Shown one piece after another: positions 26,520-37,027 of a DNA stretch of 48,938 nucleotides. The translations under genes were made by a program, and so were the position numbers. A model generated the notes under the pieces. The model saw only the letters and a list, made by a program, of their open reading frames with translations. It did not search any database and was not told where the DNA came from. Within the stretch, counting starts at the first letter, position 1, and each line of letters begins with the position of its first letter. This DNA is from Acidimicrobiaceae bacterium. GTDB lineage: Bacteria > Actinomycetota > Acidimicrobiia > Acidimicrobiales > RAAP-2. The stretch lies in contig PMLJ01000048.1 in the NCBI GenBank assembly GCA_003158855.1, forward strand, positions 1 through 48,938. Direction: 5' to 3'.

Positions 26520-27368
26520 CTACCCTTCGGCGTCCACGCGCAGCCCGTAGAGGTCGGGCCGGCGCAGCTCCAGCACGGAGATCTGGGACCGCCTTCGAGA
26601 CACTTCGTCCAAGTCGAGCATCGCGACCAGGACGTCCGGCGCGTTCGACGTCGACTCCGCGATCACTTCGCCCCACGGACCAACGATGATCGAATGCCCG
26701 TACGACGAAAGGCCTTCCTCCGTGGTGCCCGCCTGCGCCGCCGCCACCACGAACGCGTGGTTCTCGATGGCGCGGGCCTTTATCAGCACGTCCCAGTGGT
26801 CGGCTCCGGTCACCGCGTTGAACGCCGACGGGATGGCGAAGACCGTCGCCCCGCGAAGCGCCAGGCTCCGGTAGAGCTCGGGGAAGCGCAGGTCGAAGCA
26901 GATCGACATGCCGAGGTCGAACCCGGGGAGTTGGGCGACGACGACGTCGCTGCCCGCTTCGATCGCCCTCGACTCCATGTAGGAGACCTTCCCGGGCACC
27001 TCGATGTCGAACAGGTGCGCCTTTCGGTACGTGGCGCCCACCGAGCCGTCGTCGTTGATGATCACGCTGGTGTTGAAGCACTTCTCGCTCCGAGGAGACT
27101 TCTCCAGCATGCTGCCGAGGTGGATGGTGACCTTGCTCGACGAGGCGATCTCACCAAAGCGGTCGGTCAGCGGCCCGGGAATGGATTCACCGATGGCGCC
27201 GTAGTTGGCCGTCGGGCCGTAGTAGTTCAAGTATTCGGGCAGTTGGATGTACGAAGCCCCCTGGCCCGCGGCGTCGAGGACGAGATCGATGGCGGTGTCG
27301 ACGTTCGACTCCGTGTCAGAGCCCGAGCTGAGCTGCACCGCGGCGACCTTTATCTTCGAAGCATTCAT
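26520..27368 (-). CDS. Carbon-nitrogen hydrolase (nitrilase superfamily, Nit1/Nit2-like)
   Basis: Cytosolic amidase of 282 aa. The Glu-Lys-Cys triad is visible in IQLPEYLNYYG, TYRKAHLFDIEVPGK and MSICFDLRFPELYR. The middle segment HLFDIEVPGK with a following ES resembles omega-amidase (Nit2), whereas CFDLRFPEL resembles Nit1 (deaminated-glutathione amidase). An AAGGAA lies upstream of the ATG at 27368. The downstream hydrolase pseudogene may once have been cotranscribed with it, with a gap of 60 bp. The exact substrate is undetermined. Confidence 0.88.
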   Translation of the reverse strand: MNASKIKVAAVQLSSGSDTESNVDTAIDLVLDAAGQGASYIQLPEYLNYYGPTANYGAIGESIPGPLTDRFGEIASSSKVTIHLGSMLEKSPRSEKCFNTSVIINDDGSVGATYRKAHLFDIEVPGKVSYMESRAIEAGSDVVVAQLPGFDLGMSICFDLRFPELYRSLALRGATVFAIPSAFNAVTGADHWDVLIKARAIENHAFVVAAAQAGTTEEGLSSYGHSIIVGPWGEVIAESTSNAPDVLVAMLDLDEVSRRRSQISVLELRRPDLYGLRVDAEG

Positions 27369-27477
27369 CGAGAACGCACTTCCTTCACCGTCTTCGTAGT
27401 TCTTGCAAGTTACCTGCCTCGACCTTCAATTCCTACCGCTGGGGCAATCACGTGGCTCGAGAGCCGGCCGGCTGACT

Positions 27478-27500
27478 GGACCACGACAAAGTCGTGGTCC
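27478..27500 (-). terminator. Hairpin after the XRE-nucleotidyltransferase operon
   Basis: A 10-bp perfect inverted repeat with an AAA loop begins 3 nt past the nucleotidyltransferase stop on the leftward strand. It probably ends that transcript before the nitrilase gene. Confidence 0.65.
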
Positions 27501-27503
27501 GGC

Positions 27504-27989
27504 CTAACCCTCGGTCCGGCGAAGCAGTCGCTTGAGTGCCGGAAGCGCAGCCCGATCCTTCTCTCGATTTGACGCCTCTTTGGAGTGAACGATGTCGCCC
27601 AAGCTCGCAACCTCTATGGTCACTCCCTCTATCGTCAGCGACGTCGATCTCTTCACAATTTCCGAGTAACTGCCCAAGCCCGCTGGGGACATTACGACGT
27701 CGAGGTCGCCGAACTTGGTGGTCAAATTGAGCATCTCCATCTTCTGAAGAAAGTCCGCGTCGGGCGAGAACGCGAGGTCCTCGCCGCTGCCCTCCGTTCG
27801 GATCTTGGCTTCCAACTCCTTGAGAGCCCCCGCCAGCCTCTCCAAATTCTCGGTGTCTCGCTGAGGTGTGACGTCGATGTCCATCGTCACGAGATCGGAT
27901 CCGTAGAGGATGGCCGCCATCCCCCCGATCAGGACGAACGAGACATCGTGTCTCTTCAGAACTCGCAGCAGCCCGCTCGGATCAAACAC
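27504..27989 (-). CDS. Minimal nucleotidyltransferase, toxin-like partner of an XRE regulator
   Basis: A 161-aa protein with the nucleotidyltransferase signature VLIGGMAAILYGSDLVTMDIDV (GG, then the metal-binding DID). It resembles AbiEii/MNT-type and DUF6036-like nucleotidyltransferases found in toxin-antitoxin or abortive-infection pairs. GTG 27989 overlaps the upstream XRE gene by 8 bp; a TTG at 28022 would overlap by 41 bp and is less likely. The pair is compact, carries its own operator and ends in a hairpin, all typical of a two-gene stress or defence module. Toxicity is inferred from family resemblance only. Confidence 0.7.
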   Translation of the reverse strand: MFDPSGLLRVLKRHDVSFVLIGGMAAILYGSDLVTMDIDVTPQRDTENLERLAGALKELEAKIRTEGSGEDLAFSPDADFLQKMEMLNLTTKFGDLDVVMSPAGLGSYSEIVKRSTSLTIEGVTIEVASLGDIVHSKEASNREKDRAALPALKRLLRRTEG

Positions 27990-28311
27990 TCTGATGCCTG
28001 AGGGCGCGTCGACCCTGCTCAACGAAGCGCGCCGCAGCGACGGCGTTATCCCAACGCTGCTGGTAGTCGAGCTTGAGGTTTCTTTCTATCGCCGAGTCGT
28101 CCCAGTCCCGTTCGACGATCGATACGTCGAGGAAGAGTCCGAGGGATTCGAGCAACGAGGCGACCCGATCGAACGACGGTTTCGATGCCCCGCTCTCCAG
28201 CCGCGAGATGGCCGACTGTGTGGTCCCGACCAGATCGGCCAGCTCTTTTTGGCTGAGACCCCGTTTTGCCCGGGCACTTCGAATGATTGGAGCGGCAAGG
28301 GAACTCGACAT
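27982..28311 (-). CDS. XRE-family HTH regulator (antitoxin-like)
   Basis: A 109-aa DNA-binding protein. Residues about 8-62 form a Cro/CI-type helix-turn-helix (KRGLSQKELADLVGTTQSAI, then SRLESGASKPS). The C-terminal 45 residues are charged and may contact the partner. The ATG at 28311 has no ribosome site; a TATATT lies 6 nt upstream, suggesting leaderless translation. A perfect palindrome (28317-28340) covers that hexamer, so autorepression is likely. It is followed by the nucleotidyltransferase gene with an 8-bp overlap. Confidence 0.82.
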   Translation of the reverse strand: MSSSLAAPIIRSARAKRGLSQKELADLVGTTQSAISRLESGASKPSFDRVASLLESLGLFLDVSIVERDWDDSAIERNLKLDYQQRWDNAVAAARFVEQGRRALRHQSV

Positions 28312-28316
28312 GGTTA

Positions 28317-28340
28317 GAATATAGCATAGTTGCTATATTC
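28317..28340. promoter_or_regulatory. Palindromic operator over the XRE gene promoter
   Basis: GAATATAGCA and TGCTATATTC are perfect 10-bp inverted arms around TAGT. The right-hand edge on the leftward strand contains TATATT, a -10 candidate ending 6 nt before the XRE start codon. Binding by the XRE protein would block its own promoter. Confidence 0.7.
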
Positions 28341-28388
28341 GCTCTCGCGAACGGTACAGAAACTTTGGCGACACTCGCTTGTGGTGCC

Positions 28389-31300
28389 CTAATGCCAGTC
28401 CCTCGAGGGCGCCGTGGCGCCGAGACTGAGCGGCTCGACGAACTCGACCATCAACGCGAGCGTGCCCTGGCCCCGCTGCAGCGAGCCCCGTACCAGCAGC
28501 GCCGGAGATCTTCGCGCCACCGGCGACCAGCGGGCCCACGCCCCCTTGGAGAAGATCACGTTGACGTGCCCGGTCTCGTCCTCGAGATTGAGGAACACCG
28601 CGCCGTTCGCGGTCTCGGGGTGCTGGCGGTGGGTGACGACGCCTGCGACCGTGACCCGCGAGCTCTCCGCACCCGCCAACCCGTCGGCGCGCGTGACCCC
28701 GCGCGCGTGCAGCTCGCCGCGCACCAGCGCGATCGCGGTTGTTTCGGGCGTGAGGCCCATCGACCAGAGGTCGTCGGCGACCCTCTCCATCTCGGTCGTC
28801 GCGGGAAGCTCGGGGGCGACCACCCCGGTCACCACGCTCTCCAGCCGGTCGGCCGTTCCCTGGGCCGCTGGCCCGGCCGCCCACGCGAGTGCCCGGCGGC
28901 TCGTCCCGAAGTCGTCGAGCGCGCCCGCGGCGGCGAGGGCCTCGAGGTGGTGCTGCTGGCAGCGCGCGCGGCGCACGAGGTCCTCGGGGCCCCGCCAGGG
29001 AGCGCCTTCGACGATGCGCCCGGCGAGCTCGGTGCCTACGGCGCGAAGCGAGCCGAGCCCGAGGCGCACCTCGGGGTGCTCGAGCGAGCCCTCGAGCGTG
29101 GCATCGACGCCCGACCTGTTCACGTCGGGGCGCAGCACGGCGACCCCGTGGCGCTTCGCGTCGGCGACCAGGCTCTGGGGTGACCAGAACCCGAGGGGCT
29201 GGGCGTTGAGCAGCGAGACCAGGAACGCCGCCGGATAGTGGTACTTGATCCACGCCGAGCAGTACACGAGGTGGGCGAAGGAGACCGAGTGCGACTCGGG
29301 GAACCCGAAGTTCGCGAACGCCGCCAGGGCGTCGAAGAGCTGGTCGGCGCCTTCCCCGGTGATGCCGTTCTTCGCCATGCCGGCGTAGAAGCGGCTCTTC
29401 AGCTTCAGCATGCGCAGCTCCGAGCGCTTGGCGGCCATGGCCTGGCGCAGTTCGTCCGCCTCGGCCGGGGAGAACCCCGCCACGGCGACCGCCATCTCCA
29501 TGAGCTGCTCCTGGAAGAGCGGCACCCCGAGGGTGCGCCGCAGGATTGGCTCGAGGCGCGGGTGCAGGTAGGTCACCGGCTCGTCGCCGCGGCGCCGGCG
29601 GATGTAGGGATTCACCGCGTTGCCCTGGATGGGGCCGGGGCGGATCAGCGCCACCTCGATGACGAGGTCGTAGAAGCAGCGCGGCTGCACCCTCGGCAAC
29701 GTCGCCATCTGGGCGCGCGACTCGACCTGGAAGACCCCGACGGTGTCGGCCTCGCAGAGCAGGTCGTAGACGCAGTCCTCCTGGGCCAGCTCGCCCAGGT
29801 CGATCGTCACCCCGTGAAAGTCCGCCACCTGATCGACCGCGCGGTGCAGCGCGTCGAGCATCCCGAGCCCCAGGAGGTCGAACTTGACGAGGCCAATGGC
29901 GGCGCAGTCGTCCTTGTCCCACTGCAGCACCGTGCGCCCGGGCATACGGCCCCACTCGACCGGGCAGACCTCGATGACCGGCCGGTCGCAGAGCACCATG
30001 CCGGCCGAGTGGATCCCGAGGTGGCGCGGGCGGGTGAGGAGCTGGTTCGCCATGGTGAGCACCAGCTCGGGCACCTCCTCGGAGGTCGCGGTCATGCTCT
30101 GGCGGTCGACGCCGTCGCGCAGCTTGTTCGCCTGCTCCTCGGAGAACCCGAAGGCGCGCGCCACGTCGCGCAGCGCCGAGCGGGGCCGGTACGTGATCAC
30201 GGCCGCCACCTGGGCGGCGTGGCGGCGTCCGTAGCGCCCGTAGACGTACTGGATCACCTCCTCGCGCCGTCCCGACTCGATGTCGACGTCGATGTCGGGG
30301 GGTCCGTCACGCGCCGGGGAGAGGAACCGCTCGAAGAACAGATTGAGCTTCACCGCGTCGGCGTTCGTGATGCCGAGCGAGAAGCAGACGGCCGAGTTCG
30401 CGGCCGACCCCCGGCCCTGGCAGTAGATGTTCTCGCGCCGACAGAACTCGGTGATGTCCCAGACGGTGAGGAAGTACCCGGCGAAGCCCAGCGAACCAAT
30501 GACCCCCAGCTCATGGTCGATCTGGCGCCACGCGCCCGGCACCCGCTCGGCGTCGCGCGGTCCGTAACGAAGCGTCGCGCCCTTTTCCACGAGCGCCAAC
30601 AGGTAGGACTGCTCGTCCATTCCCGCGGGGGTTGGGAACGCCGGCAGGTTTGGCGCGACGAGGCGCAGGTCGAAGGTCAGCTCGGCGGCGAGCTCACCGG
30701 CCTGGTCGACGACCCCGGGCCAGCGCGCGAAGCGACGGCGCTGCTCGGCGTCGCTGCGCAGGTGAGCAAGCGGCGACGCCGAGAGCCACCCCTCCATCTC
30801 CTCGAGGCTCCGGCGGGCGCGAATGGCGGAGAGGACGTTCGCCCTCGCGAAGGCGTCGGGCGTCGCGTAGTGGACGTTGCCTGTCGCGACCAGCGCGACG
30901 TCGGCGTTCACGGCGAGCTCGGCCAGCACGTCGTTGCGCGCCACGTCGTCGAACCCGCCGTGGTCCCAGATCTCGGCCGCCACGTTGTTGCGGCCGAAGG
31001 CGTCGACGAGGCGCGCGAGTTGGCGCCGCGCGCCGCGCGGGCCCTCGTCCATCAGCGCGCGCGTCAGGGGCCCCTTGCGACATCCCGTAAGCACCATCCA
31101 CTCGCCGGCGTTCTCCGCCACGTCCCCGAGGGTGAAGCGCGGAGCCCCCTTCTCGCCGCGCGCGAGATGCGCCTCGCCCAGCATCGTCGCGAGGCGGCGG
31201 TAACCCCCGGGAGAGCGAGCGAGCACCACGAGGTGGTCCCCGGTGGGGTCGGGCATCCCCACCCGATCGTCGGTGGCGTCGAGGGAGATCTCCACACCGA

Positions 31301-31490
31301 AGATGGCCGGCAGTGCGAAGGCGCGAGCCGCCTCGGCGAAACGGACCACCCCGTAGAGGCCGTGATGGTCGGTGAGCGCGAGACCCGAGAGGCCGAGCCG
31401 GACGGCCTCAGCGACGAGTTCTTCGGGGTCGCTCGCTCCGTCGAGGAAGCTGAATCCCGAGTGCGCGTGAAGTTCGGCGTAGACCGTCAT
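28389..31490 (-). CDS. dnaE2: Error-prone DNA polymerase III alpha subunit, DnaE2/ImuC
   Basis: Translesion polymerase of the SOS mutasome, 1033 aa from ATG 31490. The N-terminal PHP domain starts MTVYAELHAHSGFSFLDGA. The C-family palm has the catalytic aspartates in PPDIDVDIESGRREEV near residue 400. DLLGLGMLD, the fingers and a helix-hairpin-helix region follow, then a C-terminal OB fold (VTVAGVVTHRQHPETANG). The length fits DnaE2 rather than replicative DnaE1 (about 1180 aa). A GTG 27 nt upstream is a possible alternative start. The ATG overlaps the stop of the preceding chimeric gene (ATGA). Expected to act with ImuA and ImuB under LexA control. Confidence 0.95.
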   Translation of the reverse strand: MTVYAELHAHSGFSFLDGASDPEELVAEAVRLGLSGLALTDHHGLYGVVRFAEAARAFALPAIFGVEISLDATDDRVGMPDPTGDHLVVLARSPGGYRRLATMLGEAHLARGEKGAPRFTLGDVAENAGEWMVLTGCRKGPLTRALMDEGPRGARRQLARLVDAFGRNNVAAEIWDHGGFDDVARNDVLAELAVNADVALVATGNVHYATPDAFARANVLSAIRARRSLEEMEGWLSASPLAHLRSDAEQRRRFARWPGVVDQAGELAAELTFDLRLVAPNLPAFPTPAGMDEQSYLLALVEKGATLRYGPRDAERVPGAWRQIDHELGVIGSLGFAGYFLTVWDITEFCRRENIYCQGRGSAANSAVCFSLGITNADAVKLNLFFERFLSPARDGPPDIDVDIESGRREEVIQYVYGRYGRRHAAQVAAVITYRPRSALRDVARAFGFSEEQANKLRDGVDRQSMTATSEEVPELVLTMANQLLTRPRHLGIHSAGMVLCDRPVIEVCPVEWGRMPGRTVLQWDKDDCAAIGLVKFDLLGLGMLDALHRAVDQVADFHGVTIDLGELAQEDCVYDLLCEADTVGVFQVESRAQMATLPRVQPRCFYDLVIEVALIRPGPIQGNAVNPYIRRRRGDEPVTYLHPRLEPILRRTLGVPLFQEQLMEMAVAVAGFSPAEADELRQAMAAKRSELRMLKLKSRFYAGMAKNGITGEGADQLFDALAAFANFGFPESHSVSFAHLVYCSAWIKYHYPAAFLVSLLNAQPLGFWSPQSLVADAKRHGVAVLRPDVNRSGVDATLEGSLEHPEVRLGLGSLRAVGTELAGRIVEGAPWRGPEDLVRRARCQQHHLEALAAAGALDDFGTSRRALAWAAGPAAQGTADRLESVVTGVVAPELPATTEMERVADDLWSMGLTPETTAIALVRGELHARGVTRADGLAGAESSRVTVAGVVTHRQHPETANGAVFLNLEDETGHVNVIFSKGAWARWSPVARRSPALLVRGSLQRGQGTLALMVEFVEPLSLGATAPSRDWH

Positions 31491-31507
31491 CGGTCGCAGA
31501 TCCCGGC
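31411..31507. repeat. Direct repeat copy A (dnaE2 5' end)
   Basis: About 97 bp covering the first codons of dnaE2 and its immediate upstream. Over 31421-31504 it matches 32110-32193 with 6 mismatches in 84 bp (about 93 percent). This copy belongs to the intact dnaE2. Confidence 0.9.
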
Positions 31508-32179
31508 TGTCCGCCACTGGCAGGCGCGCGCGCCGTCGCAGTCGATTGAATCAGGAATGACGGTGAAAACCGTCACGGTGAGGAAACTCGCCCAGCCACG
31601 CGAGGCGAGGCTGGGCGGAGTCGCTTCGTCGAAGTCGATGCTGATGGTTGTCGCAAGCGTGGTGGTCGTGGTGCTTCGCCGCCACCCGATGTTTGGACTC
31701 GTTCCAGCCGCGTTCAGCGCGAAAACTCGACTAATAGTTGCAAAAATGAGTACACCATCATCGCTGGTCGTACCGTGAATCTTGTAATGGCTCGACGAAG
31801 GGCAAATCGCAGCAGATATGCCGTTATCGCTGGTCGTACCGTGAATTTCGTATTTGCAGGCCAAATGGTAGGGAATGGCGACGGAACTCGACGAGAAAAC
31901 CGTCGCGATCCGGACGATCATGCCCCCGTGCGAAGTGGAACTCGCCGGGATGACCTCGTCGAAGTTGGCGTTAAGGGTGATGGCGAGCATGGCCGTCGAG
32001 CCGTTGCTCCGACCCCCGATATCGAAGCCCGAACTGTCCGTGCTGAGCGTGAAGGTCCTGCTGGTCGCCACCGTCGGCGCCGGGACTCGAGCGGCCCCGG
32101 CAATGAGCACTTCGGGGTCGCTCGCTCCGTCGAGGAAGTTGAGTCCCGAGTGCGCGCGAGGTTCGGCGTAGACCGTCAT
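31487..32179 (-). CDS. Chimeric gene between imuB and dnaE2: dnaE2-like N-terminus plus Ser/Thr-rich repeats
   Basis: An open frame of 230 codons. It begins at an ATG sharing a base with the imuB stop (TGATG), and its TGA overlaps the dnaE2 ATG (ATGA). The first 30 residues (MTVYAEPRAHSGLNFLDGAS, then DPEVLIAGAAR) are a diverged copy of the DnaE2 N-terminus. The remainder is Ser/Thr-rich, with two related blocks of about 60 aa (RTFTLS...FDE...P and RVFALN...FDE...P) flanking two copies of an IHGTTSD(N/D)G motif. The last 10 residues resemble the ImuB C-terminus. The DNA is AT-richer than the flanks. I do not recognise the inserted sequence. It may be a new coupled gene or debris that happens to stay open. 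Confidence 0.5.
   Translation of the reverse strand: MTVYAEPRAHSGLNFLDGASDPEVLIAGAARVPAPTVATSRTFTLSTDSSGFDIGGRSNGSTAMLAITLNANFDEVIPASSTSHGGMIVRIATVFSSSSVAIPYHLACKYEIHGTTSDNGISAAICPSSSHYKIHGTTSDDGVLIFATISRVFALNAAGTSPNIGWRRSTTTTTLATTISIDFDEATPPSLASRGWASFLTVTVFTVIPDSIDCDGARACQWRTAGICDR
31760..31846. repeat. Two 21-bp direct repeats inside the imuB-dnaE2 insert
   Basis: ATCGCTGGTCGTACCGTGAA plus T occurs at 31760-31780 and 31826-31846, 66 bp apart. On the leftward strand the copies encode the two IHGTTSD motifs of the chimeric gene. The 66-bp period is a multiple of three, so the protein repeat is in register. Confidence 0.9.
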
Positions 32180-32196
32180 CAGTCGTAGATCCCGAC
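32100..32196. repeat. Direct repeat copy B (imuB 3' end / dnaE2 5' fragment)
   Basis: Partner of the repeat at 31411-31507, offset by 689 bp. This copy keeps the imuB stop overlapping an ATG (TGATG), which looks like the ancestral imuB-dnaE2 junction. Homology fades beyond the two ends. Confidence 0.9.
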
Positions 32197-33258
32197 GACC
32201 CACCAGCGACCGAGTTCGGCGACGAGCAGGACCGCCTCGCCGGTCGCCAGCACCACCTGGAGATGGGCGCGCCGGCGGCTGAGCGCCCACCACCGCTCCA
32301 CGAGCGGCCAGGGTCCCGCGTGCCAGACGACGTCGCGACGGGCCTGGCTCGAAAAGAGCAGCGCCGAGGGAATCCCGCTGAGCAGTCCCCGCGACCCCAT
32401 GCGGATCTGCTGAGCGTTCTCGTCGTGTAGCTGCACCGCCACCCGATGCTGGAACGTCATCGCCGGCGCGGGGGCGCGGAACTGACCAGGCCACGGGGCG
32501 TCGTCGGTAACTCTGCCCACGGGCGATCCGAACGGCACCAGCGTGGCGCGGTCCTCGGGGACCCGCCCCCCGCGAAGCGACGCGACCATCACCGCGTCAG
32601 CGCCGAGACGATTGCGCACGCGATACGCGGCTACCTGGGCGCGGTCGTCGCCCGCGCCGCGCTGACCGAAAAAACCAATCTGCTCGTCCGTCAATTCGCC
32701 GCCGCCGCGTAGCGATCGAAGACGCTTGGCGAGGCGCGGGTCGCGCTGGCCGCCCAACTCGCTCGACTCGCCCCTCGCCACGCGGTGCAGCTGGAGCACC
32801 GACGTGGAGAAACGCTCCGCGACCCGGGCCCGCTCGAGGTCAGCGAACGCTCCGAGCGTGTGAAGGCCCAACCGTCGGCACGTGGTCGCGAGGTCCTTTC
32901 GCCCGAGGGCGCTGAGCGGCTGAGCGCGGCGAAAGGACTCCGTCTCGCCTGCAGCCACCACCACGCCCGCTCGGGCGGCGAGCTCGGCGCAGAACAGGCC
33001 GTCGGCGACGCCGAGTGACGGCTCGCAGCCAATAAGGTCGTGGACGCTCTGGCGCACGGTCTCGAGCACCGCCGTCTCGCCGCCGAAGAACCGGCTCGGG
33101 CCTCGCACGGGCAAGACGAGCAGTCCAAGCCGTACCGGCTCGGTGAAGGGGCAAAGAACCGTCAGCGCGTCGAGCACCGAGAGATAGCCGCGCAGCGACG
33201 AGCCGTCCGGCTTCTCCTCACTGAGCGCCTCAATCCATACGGCAAGGAGGCGTTCCAC
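32179..33258 (-). CDS. imuB: ImuB-like Y-family polymerase homologue, N-terminally short
   Basis: Mutasome adaptor related to Y-family polymerases, 359 aa from GTG 33258. The GTG overlaps the imuA stop by one base. The palm region LGLLVLPVRGPSRFFGGETA and the following LGVADGLFCAELAARAG match the ImuB palm. SALGRKDLATTCRRLGLHTLGAFADLE is the helix-hairpin-helix region, and the little-finger domain and C-terminal tail follow. Typical ImuB is about 500 aa; here the first 70 or so residues of the palm are missing or replaced by MERLLAVWIEALSEEKPDG. ImuB is a non-catalytic subunit that bridges the beta clamp and DnaE2, so the loss may be tolerated. Confidence 0.78.
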   Translation of the reverse strand: MERLLAVWIEALSEEKPDGSSLRGYLSVLDALTVLCPFTEPVRLGLLVLPVRGPSRFFGGETAVLETVRQSVHDLIGCEPSLGVADGLFCAELAARAGVVVAAGETESFRRAQPLSALGRKDLATTCRRLGLHTLGAFADLERARVAERFSTSVLQLHRVARGESSELGGQRDPRLAKRLRSLRGGGELTDEQIGFFGQRGAGDDRAQVAAYRVRNRLGADAVMVASLRGGRVPEDRATLVPFGSPVGRVTDDAPWPGQFRAPAPAMTFQHRVAVQLHDENAQQIRMGSRGLLSGIPSALLFSSQARRDVVWHAGPWPLVERWWALSRRRAHLQVVLATGEAVLLVAELGRWWVVGIYD

Positions 33259-33917
33259 TAGCCCGGCGCCGCCCGACCTTTTCGATTGGGCAGCACCACC
33301 ACGTGTTCGCCAGCGCGCTGCGCCTCGCCGCGCCCGCCCACCCGGACCGTGAGGTAGCGGGCGTCGAGGCGCGACGACGTGGCCCACTGCGCGTGGGTGA
33401 TGTCGAACGAGAGGTCGACCGGCAGGGGCCACGGCGCGCCCGGCTCGCAGAGCACGATCAGCACCGTGCCGCGCTCGCGCACCCGGTCCATCAGTTGGCG
33501 GGCGACCCTGTGCGCGGTACGCGAGGGCGGACGCACCACCAGGAGGTCGACCCCGTCGAGCAGGTCCGCCGCGGACTCGGCCCACGCCCCGCGGGGTCGG
33601 GGCACGAAGAGCACGCGGCGCAGGTCGACCCCGAGGTCGGCGATCGCGACCACCCCGGGGTCGTCAACGCCCACCACCGCGACCCAGTGGCCCAGGGTGC
33701 TGGCTTCGGTGACGAGGCTTAGGGCCAGACTGAGCCCGCCCGAGCCGGGCTGCGCCTGCACGAGAACCGTTGAGCCTCGTCGCAGCCCGCCGTTCGGCGT
33801 CAACGCCTTCCAGGGCTCGCCGAGCGGCAGGAGACGGCTTTTCGCCATGGTGACGGGACGTAGCGTGGCGACCAGATCATCGGAGAGTTGGGGTCGTGAA
33901 GTTGAAAAAGCGAACAT
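33258..33917 (-). CDS. imuA: ImuA-like RecA-fold protein of the SOS mutasome
   Basis: A 219-aa P-loop-like protein related to ImuA/ImuA' and RecA. LTPNGGLRRGSTVLVQAQPGSG forms a degenerate Walker A region, and LLDGVDLLVVRPPS lies where Walker B is expected. The C-terminal region (YLTVRVGGRG) is short, as in ImuA' proteins. I chose ATG 33917 because a TACTCT hexamer 9 nt upstream and the LexA box both fit a transcript starting 2 nt before it. ATG 33848 and an upstream start at 33956 are alternatives. It leads the imuA-imuB-(chimera)-dnaE2 operon. Confidence 0.75.
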   Translation of the reverse strand: MFAFSTSRPQLSDDLVATLRPVTMAKSRLLPLGEPWKALTPNGGLRRGSTVLVQAQPGSGGLSLALSLVTEASTLGHWVAVVGVDDPGVVAIADLGVDLRRVLFVPRPRGAWAESAADLLDGVDLLVVRPPSRTAHRVARQLMDRVRERGTVLIVLCEPGAPWPLPVDLSFDITHAQWATSSRLDARYLTVRVGGRGEAQRAGEHVVVLPNRKGRAAPG

Positions 33918-33924
33918 ATGTTCG
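33911..33924. promoter_or_regulatory. LexA (SOS) box between imuA and yedK
   Basis: CGAACATATGTTCG is a perfect palindrome matching the actinobacterial SOS consensus GAAC-N4-GTTC. It overlaps the imuA start codon and probable transcription start and lies 65 bp before the divergent SRAP gene. Confidence 0.85.
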
Positions 33925-33988
33925 TAAGAGTAGCCACTCCCGGTGACACACGCCAATGGCCTTTATCGTGAAGGGTGAAAGGAGATTT

Positions 33989-34696
33989 ATGTGCGGTCGC
34001 GTTGCTCTCTTCACTCCCCCGTCTCGCCTCGCGAAGCTGCTCGACGCGCAGTTGGCGGCGGGCATCGACCCCGAAGGCCACCCCAGTTGGAACGTCGGAC
34101 CTTTGCAACGGCTCTTCGGGGTCGCCGAGGTTGGCGGCGCGCGCACCCTCGACCGCTACCGCTGGGGCCTCATCCCGAGTTGGTCGAAGGACCCGTCGAT
34201 CGCCAACCGGCTCTTCAACGCCCGCGGCGAGACAGTGGCGGAGAAGCCCTCGTTCCGCAGCGCCTTCGCGAAGCGACCGTGCGTCATCCCCGTTGACGGC
34301 TTCTACGAGTGGGACCACCGCAGCGGCCACGAGAAGCAGCCTCACTACTTCGTCCGCGCCGACGGAGAGCCCCTCCTCCTCGCCGGTCTCTACGAGCGCT
34401 GGCACGACCCGAACATGCCCGAAGACGCGCTAGCGCTACAGACCTGCACCGTGATCACGACGAGCCCCAGCAAGGACATGGACGACCTGCACGACCGCAT
34501 GCCCGTCGTGCTCGCGCTCTCGGACGTGGAGATCTGGCTCGACGTCGAGGTCTACGGGCCCGATGAACGGATGCAGTTGCTGCGCCCCGCACCCCCGGAA
34601 ACCTTGCTCCACCACGGCGTCGACAAAGCCGTCGGATCGGTGCGCAACGACGGGCCGGAGTTGATCGAGCCCGTCGAGCCCCAGTCGTTCTTCTAG
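33989..34696 (+). CDS. SRAP/YedK family protein (abasic-site DNA-protein crosslinker)
   Basis: SOS response-associated protein of 235 aa. It starts MCGRVALFT, and removal of Met exposes catalytic Cys2, which bonds covalently to abasic sites in single-stranded DNA (HMCES/YedK mechanism). WNVGPLQRLFGV, RWGLIPSWSKD, NARGETVAEKPSF, CVIPVDGFYEW and HDRMPVVL are all family motifs, including the active-site Asn, Glu and His. AAAGGAG lies 4 nt before this ATG, so the longer frame from 33956 is not used. It is divergent from the imuA operon across the LexA box, consistent with joint damage induction. Confidence 0.95.
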   Translation: MCGRVALFTPPSRLAKLLDAQLAAGIDPEGHPSWNVGPLQRLFGVAEVGGARTLDRYRWGLIPSWSKDPSIANRLFNARGETVAEKPSFRSAFAKRPCVIPVDGFYEWDHRSGHEKQPHYFVRADGEPLLLAGLYERWHDPNMPEDALALQTCTVITTSPSKDMDDLHDRMPVVLALSDVEIWLDVEVYGPDERMQLLRPAPPETLLHHGVDKAVGSVRNDGPELIEPVEPQSFF

Positions 34697-34709
34697 CGAA
34701 AAAGCCGAA

Positions 34710-34755
34710 AACCCCGAGTGACCAGGGAGTCGAAACTCACCAGCCCCTCGGGGTT
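34710..34755 (+). terminator. Hairpin after the SRAP gene
   Basis: AACCCCGAG and CTCGGGGTT form a 9-bp stem, and the intervening 28 nt contain a further small GAGT/ACTC hairpin. It lies 13 nt after the stop codon and is a probable terminator. Confidence 0.55.
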
Positions 34756-35068
34756 CCCGAAGGCACGCTATCCGTTGGCCCGTGTCGGACAGGCCACCGT
34801 CTAACGGCAGGTACTTCACGCCATTCGTCTTACGAACAGCGGACCGAACTCCGCTGCCCGGTGAGAGCTTCCGTTCCTCTTGCGAGGCCCCTCCACTCTC
34901 CACCGATCTCCCCTTGCGGTTCAACCGACTTCGACAGGTACTGCGTGAACTACGAGTGTTACTGTGCCACACCTCACGTGACCGAAGTCGGGATAAATGG
35001 GATTTCAGAAGCTTTTACCCAGTCTTTCTCCTAGTTATCCACCGATTTCCACTTTCAAGTGAGAAATT

Positions 35069-35296
35069 TCAACCAGAAAGTGACATCTTTCCAACAGGTA
35101 CGTTCTCACCCTTCGCCACCAAGGGGCTCCCACGCTTTCCCTTTCCTGACGTGGTGATCGATCTCATAGCGTCAACTTCGAACGGCCGGATGATCCCGTC
35201 GTGCAGCGGGTGAATGGGGCCGGCGACGCCAGCCAGACCGAGGACCAGAATTGAGATCAAGACCTCGATGAGGGTGTCGCCACGCTCAGAGGCGGA
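35069..35296 (-). pseudogene. Type IV prepilin-like N-terminal fragment
   Basis: Read leftward, the frame gives SASERGDTLIEVLISILVLG followed by LAGVAG, a class III signal with the prepilin peptidase site (G before DTLIEV, Glu at +5) and hydrophobic helix. A stop codon lies immediately upstream and there is no start codon for the leader. After the hydrophobic part the sequence (HPLHDGIIRPFEVDAM) no longer resembles a pilin and ends after about 50 more residues. I interpret it as a truncated remnant. Confidence 0.55.
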
Positions 35297-35457
35297 TTAG
35301 ACCGCTCGGTGGTTCTTTCGCGCTTACACCAGTTGATCAATTCACGAGACTGCTTTGAAGGTGCCGAGCAGGGAACTGCCATACCAGTTTCGTGGAACTG
35401 TGAGGAGCCCGGCACCCCGCTTCAAACCACGCGGGGTGAGGTCACCAGAAGCCGGCA

Positions 35458-35643
35458 CTACTCGTCAGGCAAGCCCTTCGTCTTGCGCCGCTCGCCCTTG
35501 CGCCGCTCGCCCTTGCGCCGCTCGGTACCACTAGGCGACCCCGAGTCGTGCTTGCGGCGATCGTCATCACCCCGGCGATCACCGCTTCTTCGCTCGACGC
35601 CGTCGGAAGGATCGGAGTCTTGGCCTGTCGCATCGTCGGTCAC
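35458..35643 (-). CDS. Doubtful small Arg-rich protein with GERRK repeats
   Basis: A 61-codon frame from a GTG, rich in Arg, Asp, Glu and Lys. A tandem GERRK repeat near its C-terminus is encoded by a 15-bp direct repeat. There is no ribosome site. The composition resembles small charged actinobacterial proteins, but it could be chance. Confidence 0.25.
   Translation of the reverse strand: MTDDATGQDSDPSDGVERRSGDRRGDDDRRKHDSGSPSGTERRKGERRKGERRKTKGLPDE
35482..35526. repeat. Three-copy 15-bp tandem repeat
   Basis: CTTGCGCCGCTCGCC is present in two perfect copies (35482-35511) and one nearly perfect copy (35512-35526, differing only at its end). In the leftward frame each unit encodes GERRK. 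Confidence 0.85.
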
Positions 35644-35917
35644 TATGCATGCTTAACACCGCCGTCGCCCACATCGACGCATCGTGACCACCCAGAAGAT
35701 CGAGATTCCCGGTCGCTCCTACCTCGCTCCAGCTCGAAGCGAGTTCGACCCCTTCGTTCGAGCGTTGCCAACGGGGCCGAGATCTGCGGCTCTGGTCTTC
35801 GGCTCGGACACCCTCGGGCGTCACTCGGCAGTTGTCGGGCCGCCGGGGTACGTCGCTCGGTCCCAGTCGGGGAAGATGACGACGCTACGTTCGAACCGCC
35901 CGTGCCAGCCGGACCCG

Positions 35918-36610
35918 TCAGTGGGACGTCGTGAACATGAAGTTCGGTCCCAGGTCGTAGTTGATGGCTGACAGACCGTTCTGGCTCAGGGTGTAGAACC
36001 AGTTGGGCTCCAACATCACGCTGGTCATCGTGAGTCCGCCAGGACCGTTGCCGTCCATGGCCACGTAGCTGATGGCGGGATTCACATCCGAGGCGACCAG
36101 CGCGGGTGATGCCACGTAGTAGTTCGTGAGCGAAACCCAGGCAACTGAATAGGTGTCGCTCTTGTTCAGTGTGACGGGACTGGAGAGCGCGGCGTACCGG
36201 TAGACACCGGTCGGCGGGTCCGAGGAGCTCACGTTGACGCTACCCAGGAGCGTATGCGAGCTGATGTCGTACAACGCGACTGGCACAGTGACGAAGCTCT
36301 CGGAGCCGTTGGCCAGCGACGAGAGGTTCGAGTCGTACGCACCGAGTTTGGTGATTGAGATTGAACTGTTGGCGGTGAATTCGAACCCTTCGAGGTAGCT
36401 GCCCTGGGTGTAGTTGAACCCGCCGCTACCGGAGACCGGGACGGTGAGGGCGACGTTGCCGGCCCCCGTGGGCGCACTGCTGGTCGTCGTCGAACTCCGG
36501 TGTGTCGTCGTTGTCACCGCCGAATGGCCGCCACCACAGCCCGAGAACAGAAGTGCGAAGGCGAGGGCGCCCGCCGCCACACCAGAAACGCCCGACAGAT
36601 ACTTCTCCAT
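35918..36610 (-). CDS. Exported lipoprotein-like protein, possibly DUF4082-type
   Basis: A 230-aa protein with a signal sequence (GVAAGALAFALLFSGCGGG) ending in a lipobox-like FSGC, so Cys25 may be lipidated. A Thr/Ser linker follows (TTTTHRSSTTTSS). The remainder, with GFEFTANSSISITKLGAYD and VPVALYDISSHTLLGSV, has the beta-sandwich pattern of DUF4082-like domains; this is tentative. GAGGAG lies 6 nt before the ATG. It stands alone next to a gene-poor region. No function is recognised. Confidence 0.72.
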   Translation of the reverse strand: MEKYLSGVSGVAAGALAFALLFSGCGGGHSAVTTTTHRSSTTTSSAPTGAGNVALTVPVSGSGGFNYTQGSYLEGFEFTANSSISITKLGAYDSNLSSLANGSESFVTVPVALYDISSHTLLGSVNVSSSDPPTGVYRYAALSSPVTLNKSDTYSVAWVSLTNYYVASPALVASDVNPAISYVAMDGNGPGGLTMTSVMLEPNWFYTLSQNGLSAINYDLGPNFMFTTSH

Positions 36611-36954
36611 AGTGATCTCCTCGCTCTGGGATGCGCAAACGGAGATTCAAGGCGCCCCAGAAGATCGCACTCACGGCTCCTTGCACCAAAACGTAACGGT
36701 CCACCGCGGTGCGGGATAGTGCCAAAGGTCCCTTGGGCCCCGACTGCTGCTGGCGTGTGGTGCCGAGAACCTTATCCGTGCCTGGCTGGCCAGGACTTCT
36801 TCTCGCCAAGACGACACGAAGCAGGCTGCACCGCTCTCGACCAATGTCTTGCGGATTTGCCGTTGAACGGCTTACCCGCGCAAGTTCGCCGTTTGGTCTT
36901 GGTGCCTGGGGAATGCATTCATTATCCACGCACTACCGATGCGTTGAAATTCGG
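36611..36954. other. Intergenic stretch upstream of the lipoprotein gene
   Basis: About 340 bp between the lipoprotein start and the tRNA 3' end. It should contain the lipoprotein promoter. I see no credible gene, repeat or RNA. Confidence 0.5.
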
Positions 36955-37027
36955 TGGAGGTGATGGGATTCGAACCCACTGCCTCTACATTGCGAACGTA
37001 GCGCTCTACCAATTGAGCTACACCCCC
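36955..37027 (-). tRNA. tRNA-Ala (anticodon CGC)
   Basis: Read leftward it folds as a standard cloverleaf of 73 nt. The acceptor GGGGGTG pairs with CACCTCC and includes the G3:U70 wobble that identifies alanine tRNA. The D arm is GCTC/GAGC, the anticodon stem CTACG/TGTAG carries loop TTCGCAA (anticodon CGC, codon GCG), and the T arm has TTCGAAT. The 3' CCA is not encoded. Confidence 0.97.

Follow-up and report, generated by a model that had tools for sequence, protein, structure and literature searches.

A probable tandem duplication at the imuB-dnaE2 junction left a chimeric open reading frame that may carry ribosomes to dnaE2 in three Acidimicrobiaceae genomes

Why should the imuB and dnaE2 genes of a mutagenic repair operon be separated by a 230-codon open reading frame (ORF) that itself overlaps both of its neighbors? 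The question is raised by the window analyzed here, a stretch of 48,938 nucleotides that is part of G000:C8 (genome G000, 2.7 Mb), on the minus strand of which the order is imuA', imuB, an insert and dnaE2 (Table 1). The order imuA'-imuB-dnaE2 is that of the ImuA'-ImuB-DnaE2 mutasome cassette, from which the locus differs by the extra ORF between imuB and dnaE2, found in three species; the mycobacterial imuA-imuB pair is called a two-gene operon in the part of a published study drawn on here (PMC10421592). The dnaE2 product has the Pfam domains PHP, DNA_pol3_alpha, finger, HHH_6 and tRNA_anti-codon/OB. The name imuB is given from the position of the gene and from a weak NCBIfam match of its product to DNA polymerase IV (26 bits against a cut-off of 371), a Pfam search at 1e-3 having returned no match. 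Next to the operon, on the strand opposite to imuA', lies a gene for an SOS-response-associated peptidase (SRAP; 33956-34696, plus strand), and as the listed starts of this gene and imuA' abut, two DNA-damage genes stand back to back.

A sequence-only reading of this locus had proposed that a duplication inside the imuB-dnaE2 junction gave rise to a chimeric ORF coupled to both genes, and our analysis bears this out, the ORF combining a DnaE2 head with an ImuB tail. The repeat of imuB end and dnaE2 start is present as described, 689 bp apart and 93% identical over an 84-bp core (78/84, 31422-31505; 91% over the best 90-nt core), and in full it (D1) extends over 114 nt at 85% identity; just beyond it identity is 30–33%, which makes the junction copy sharp-edged. 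Its upstream copy (A1) keeps a TGATG overlap with imuB, and in the downstream copy (A2) CGA replaces the first TGA (CGATGA), which leaves an ATGA overlap between the stop of the ORF and the start of dnaE2; these two overlaps and the 230 open codons between them are as had been read from the sequence. We likewise confirmed that the interior is AT-richer (60% GC between the junction copies versus 71–72% in dnaE2 and imuB) and that it carries 21-bp repeats 66 bp apart, at 31760 and 31826. By itself an open frame of 230 codons is just moderately unusual, since among 5000 dinucleotide shuffles of the insert 86 left the frame of the chimeric ORF open, and 237 left one or more of the three frames open.

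Table 1. Features of the imuB-dnaE2 region, with positions in the window
Feature	Position	Strand	Basis
imuA'	33258..33956	-	Listed ORF; NCBIfam NF058630 'DnaE2-dependent mutagenesis accessory factor ImuA'', 110 bits, cut-off 65
imuB	32179..33585	-	Listed ORF, start as listed; placed between imuA' and dnaE2
imuB segment, source of the best-kept part of X1/X2	32410..32456	-	HMM matches
A1, upstream copy of the imuB-end/dnaE2-start junction (copy B of the sequence-only reading)	32092..32205	-	Repeat D1; junction HMM match
TGATG overlap, imuB stop and chimeric ORF start	32177..32181	-	Sequence reading
Chimeric ORF, 230 codons: DnaE2 head, decayed imuB tail, ImuB tail	31487..32179	-	Proposed translational relay
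X1, decayed imuB-tail copy	31848..32078	-	Homology to X2 (0/300 shuffles; HMM); direct imuB match weak, 161/500 shuffles
Y1, first of two 21-bp repeats 66 bp apart	31826..31846	.	Junction similarity score reached by 624/1000 shuffles
Y2, second 21-bp repeat	31760..31780	.	Junction similarity score reached by 39/1000 shuffles
X2, decayed imuB-tail copy	31515..31753	-	0/500 shuffles reach score vs imuB tail
A2, imuB-tail-like end and true dnaE2 start (copy A of the sequence-only reading)	31403..31516	-	Repeat D1
ATGA overlap, chimeric ORF stop and dnaE2 start	31487..31490	-	Sequence reading
dnaE2, error-prone DNA polymerase	28389..31490	-	NF004225 1315 bits, cut-off 939

When dnaE2 was searched for in 61 genomes of the genus, every one gave a match (61/61), the weak sole match in a few of them being probably to the replicative polymerase. 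Our survey of junctions covered 123 loci, 121 of them with both gene ends, which came to 62 distinct junctions after removal of repeats; three of these carry the insert (gap 685–695 nt) and 59 do not (57 at a gap of 2 and two projected at -1). A stop/start overlap stands directly after imuB in all 62 (59 TGATG, two TAATG and one TAGTG). The three carriers, G000 together with G045 and G017, which correspond to the Acidimicrobiaceae MAGs palsa_657 (PKWY01000018.1) and bog_806 (PLKM01000019.1), are three sister species of one genus that group as a single clade (support 0.978) among 65 rows, and a single origin of the insert is the simplest reading. When the G045 copy was searched against 99 genomes of the genus, with five candidates per genome scored (a scope in which weak copies could escape), 57 had some match at E ≤ 1e-3, and matches running through the insert came only from G000, G045 and G017, whereas the others covered the dnaE2 start, roughly the initial 115 nt of the query, or pieces of less than 60 nt. 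The overlaps at the boundaries of the insert are TGATG and ATGA in the window and G045, and TGATG at both ends in G017. The sequence-only reading had held that relatives lacking the insert, together with its absence from raw reads, would speak against it; such relatives are indeed the rule (59/62), but because three species share the insert they date the event rather than refute it.

A fourth copy of the insert was identified at about 48.9–50.0 kb of G000:C12, a fossil outside any imuB-dnaE2 operon. The parts of the insert are ordered A1-X1-Y1-Y2-X2-A2, and in each of the four copies X1 is homologous to X2 (0 of 300 shuffles). A model of the X unit matched imuB at 32456-32410 (E 1.7e-5), and the equivalent site in G045 (E 3e-5) and G017 (E 8e-4). 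In the reverse search, a junction model made from 16 junctions (13 natural and three with flanks joined; 580 columns) found its best match to the inserts outside A1 and A2 within columns 169–219, the same imuB place, in 4/4 copies, with scores reached by 8 (window), 0 (G045), 0 (G017) and 21 (C12) of 500 shuffles. Compared directly to the imuB tail, X2 outscored every one of 500 shuffles in each of the three junction copies, and X1 alone was weaker (161, 24 and 52 of 500); the X blocks of the C12 fossil, compared to their own upstream sequence, were reached by 40 and 441 of 500 shuffles, an unfair test as only ~106 nt there are imuB tail. X2 itself matches the imuB tail and X1 is kin to X2, so that both X blocks represent decayed imuB tail, in the case of X1 through this kinship. 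The Y repeats matched the junction no better than shuffles in seven of eight comparisons (the exception being Y2 of the window, 39/1000), and we rejected the idea, plausible in the unit alignment, that Y is a decayed junction copy. In the alignment of the Y repeats (31760-31846), ATTYACGG...ACCAGC is kept in all four copies.

When a tandem duplication spans two neighboring genes, the head of the second becomes joined to the tail of the first, and this is the pattern seen here: A1 is a dnaE2 head, X2-A2 is imuB tail, and both genes are intact outside. Since the duplicated stretch spanned the stop/start overlap, the resulting chimera overlaps both imuB and dnaE2; it differs from other tandem-duplication chimeras in being seemingly unselected for sequence and in lying inside a coupled operon. 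We are rather confident that a tandem duplication was the origin of the insert. Two suggestions of the sequence-only reading are not supported. Foreign filler is rejected for X2, and via X2 for X1, both being imuB-derived, and an element that integrated at the junction finds no support, as the repeated halves are degenerate imuB tail and no relative of the insert was found in viral, plasmid or phage collections, or in genome collections by a scan so insensitive that it missed the known G045 relative too.

Outside the insert (27,000–37,000) G000 and G045 are 91–100% identical per 100 nt, bar one bin of 88%, against 64–86% inside it. The insert is a mosaic, G045 being similar to the C12 fossil of G000 over the left half (74–90% per 50 columns) and to the window copy over the right half (80–92%), and the switch lies near the Y repeats; sites dividing the copies two against two numbered 41 for window with G045, 30 for G045 with C12, and 13 for window with C12. 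Recombination among paralogous copies thus accounts for much of the excess divergence. The right half (85% identity) has a dS of 0.33, versus 0.12 for dnaE2 (first 561 codons) and 0.08 for imuB. Uniform neutral drift is insufficient as the cause of this hyperdivergence, as the left half recombined, and adenine-targeted diversification, the mode of DGRs, was rejected because the changes affect each of the four bases and consist mostly of transitions. An excess of substitutions by codon position was not significant in any of six pairs (lowest P 0.12; pairs with G017 or C12 were compared over in-phase stretches only, those with G017 amounting in effect to the right half). Changed codons numbered 85 versus 86.6 expected at random for G000/G045 and 106 versus 107.6 for G045/C12, and amino acid changes matched randomly placed substitutions in eight of nine comparisons (P 0.15–0.94, the highest for the left half of G000/G045). 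The ninth, the right half of G000/G045, was borderline (29 versus 34.0 expected, P 0.054; dN/dS 0.38). With no significant position bias and near-random amino acid change, the product is not detectably conserved overall; the right half of G000/G045 leans to purifying selection.

If the product is not conserved, the frame itself may be. Termination-reinitiation coupling is known at ATGA and TGATG overlaps, and in the parts of two studies of native gene pairs drawn on here it requires overlap or very short spacing (PMC6728339, PMC10666635). In reporters, a spacing of about 20 nt, or 38 nt in E. coli, all but removed coupling, for which the final 15 nt of the upstream gene were enough (PMC10666635), and in gene pairs of H. 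volcanii a premature upstream stop abolished downstream translation (PMC6728339), as far as these same parts go. Both types of overlap are present here; what differs is an interposed, apparently non-functional 230-codon ORF, which would merely carry ribosomes. Given the published spacing limits, dnaE2 should be uncoupled by an untranslated gap of 690 nt, and an ORF carrying a junction copy at each end would restore the coupling.

The reading that we prefer, with a probability of roughly 0.55, is that the insert arose by duplication and that selection has acted on the translation of its frame rather than on the product. In the ancestor of the three species, the imuB-tail/dnaE2-head junction would long ago have been duplicated in tandem, which put ~690 bp between the genes; the chimera would start on the copied dnaE2 start, coupled to imuB, and stop on the true dnaE2 start, again coupled, and its internal part would have decayed and recombined with paralogous copies. 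Ribosomes finishing imuB would reinitiate at A1, translate through the ORF and reinitiate once more at dnaE2, a passage that 690 untranslated bases in place of the ORF would block. We infer that coupling has kept this path open and that dnaE2 relies on it; the product of the ORF is probably useless. More tentatively, the ORF may be selected solely to carry ribosomes, its amino acids drifting freely while cancelling indels or, where the frame breaks, a new ribosome-binding site preserve the exit frame. When single shifts are allowed the frame has zero stops in every copy, being intact in G000 and G045 and requiring one +1 shift in G017 and one -1 shift in C12, with the breakpoints in these two placed so as to keep it open. 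Two one-base indels set the window copy apart from the other three; they cancel 57 nt apart in the left half, where recombination may obscure their history, and the stretch between them differs in phase from those copies. G017 is more telling: its +1 shift splits the frame, the first part ending after 141 codons; within the last 26 nt of this part a GTG 8 nt after AGGAGG opens a 97-codon frame that ends in the TGATG of dnaE2, so that the two internal frames overlap by 26 nt. This AGGAGG has a duplex energy of -10.2 kcal/mol versus -4.1 to -5.9 at the A1 and dnaE2 starts of the carriers; the window and G045 copies lack the motif, and C12 has it once, elsewhere. An AGGAGG-GTG site in that place (a 39-nt interval) and frame was found in 8 of 20,000 shuffles, and anywhere in the insert in 373, in a test defined after the site had been noticed.

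The best-surviving alternative, which we consider unlikely, accepts the same duplication and takes the open frame as a leftover of GC-rich coding DNA, dnaE2 having its own weak ribosome-binding site and nothing being selected. The near-random amino acids are compatible with this, as is the antisense frame across the insert, which is open in G045 too and has one stop in the window copy, and which we take as a by-product of GC-rich coding origin. Openness of the frame of the chimeric ORF had a P of only 0.01–0.14 per pair in random-placement simulations, and as other frames reached similar or lower P its freedom from stops is suggestive only. A GGGA stretch also stands upstream of four of the six dnaE2 starts compared, and dnaE2 may start on a weak site of its own. 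However, a mere leftover sits poorly with the cancelling indels of the window copy, with the AGGAGG-GTG re-entry at the break in G017, and with the overlap kept after imuB in 62/62 junctions. The earlier argument that retention of both overlaps speaks against simple decay is upheld to the extent that simple decay is probably not what is seen.

The ORF might instead be a new functional orphan gene, a DnaE2-head chimera born in the mutasome operon. The frame is intact in two species, and the lean of the right half of G000/G045 toward fewer amino acid changes speaks for such a gene as well as against selection for translation alone. However, codon-position bias is not significant in the six pairs, the left half changes as expected at random, the 57-nt stretch is read in different frames in G000 and G045, and the frame is broken in G017. 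Homologs of the protein were also sought, as the sequence-only reading had advised, with no more success than for the insert DNA: the window ORF matched no Pfam or NCBIfam family, its protein had no PDB match at E up to 1, and its AlphaFold model had a pLDDT of 27.7 (all <50), which the two-row alignment alone could cause. A sub-threshold PHP match of the G045 ORF (E 0.14) falls on its dnaE2-derived head. We regard a newly born orphan gene as improbable, and the capture of a new gene by the SOS operon, as the sequence-only reading had suggested, is not favored either, given the non-significant codon-position bias and the near-random amino acid change. An RNA element was rejected as well, the one Rfam match scoring 21 bits versus a gathering score of 57. 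Among the literature matches listed, the titles and beginnings of abstracts mention neither an insert or duplication at the imuB-dnaE2 junction nor an ORF retained solely for coupling.

The fossil in C12 bears on a further alternative. It starts with a piece of dnaE2 (nt 360–430 from the ATG), followed by about 106 nt of imuB tail, and continues with A1, X, Y, Y, X and A2 and then the start of another X, from which a longer tandem array probably once existed. It is flanked by what we take to be an MMPL-type transporter-like gene on one side and a methyltransferase-like gene on the other. The matching interval of G045 holds a different piece of dnaE2 (nt 159–382 from the ATG, 90%, G045:C34:63345-63567), which abuts the same methyltransferase-like-gene block found downstream of the G000 fossil, and this isolated fragment suggests a lost second cassette at that place; in G017, ~15 kb after the transporter gene contained no dnaE2 piece at E 1e-5. 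A second, now lost copy of the cassette was likely the source and partner of the recombination. Separately, two dnaE2-like matches in long open frames were noted at G063:C13 and G063:C18 (74% and 72%), which may reflect a second dnaE2 elsewhere in the genus or a mixed G063 assembly. A small element spreading by homologous recombination between its terminal junction copies would have flanking direct repeats, a hyperdivergent, mosaic interior and a second copy such as that in C12, all of which are seen; yet just one extra copy was found, beside dnaE2 fragments of a decayed cassette, and no further one among the five candidates considered in each of the 99 genus genomes, so that we give such an element very little credence. 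An assembly artefact, which the sequence-only reading had named as a way in which the insert could prove unreal, is virtually out of the question, since, although G045 and G017 are metagenome assemblies, all three assemblies share one junction and layout, and the inserts of the window and G017 are only 77% and 66% like that of G045, and so are not copies of one error.

If the frame between imuB and dnaE2 is indeed kept for its translation, then the evolutionary retention of an open reading frame would not mean that its protein is retained as well, and annotated orphan genes that lie between coupled genes could serve as bridges. The three genomes would represent a natural experiment on how an operon, in this case one for mutagenic DNA repair, survives an uncoupling insertion, and they would provide a signature that can be searched for in any genome: an open frame with random amino acids and overlaps at both ends.
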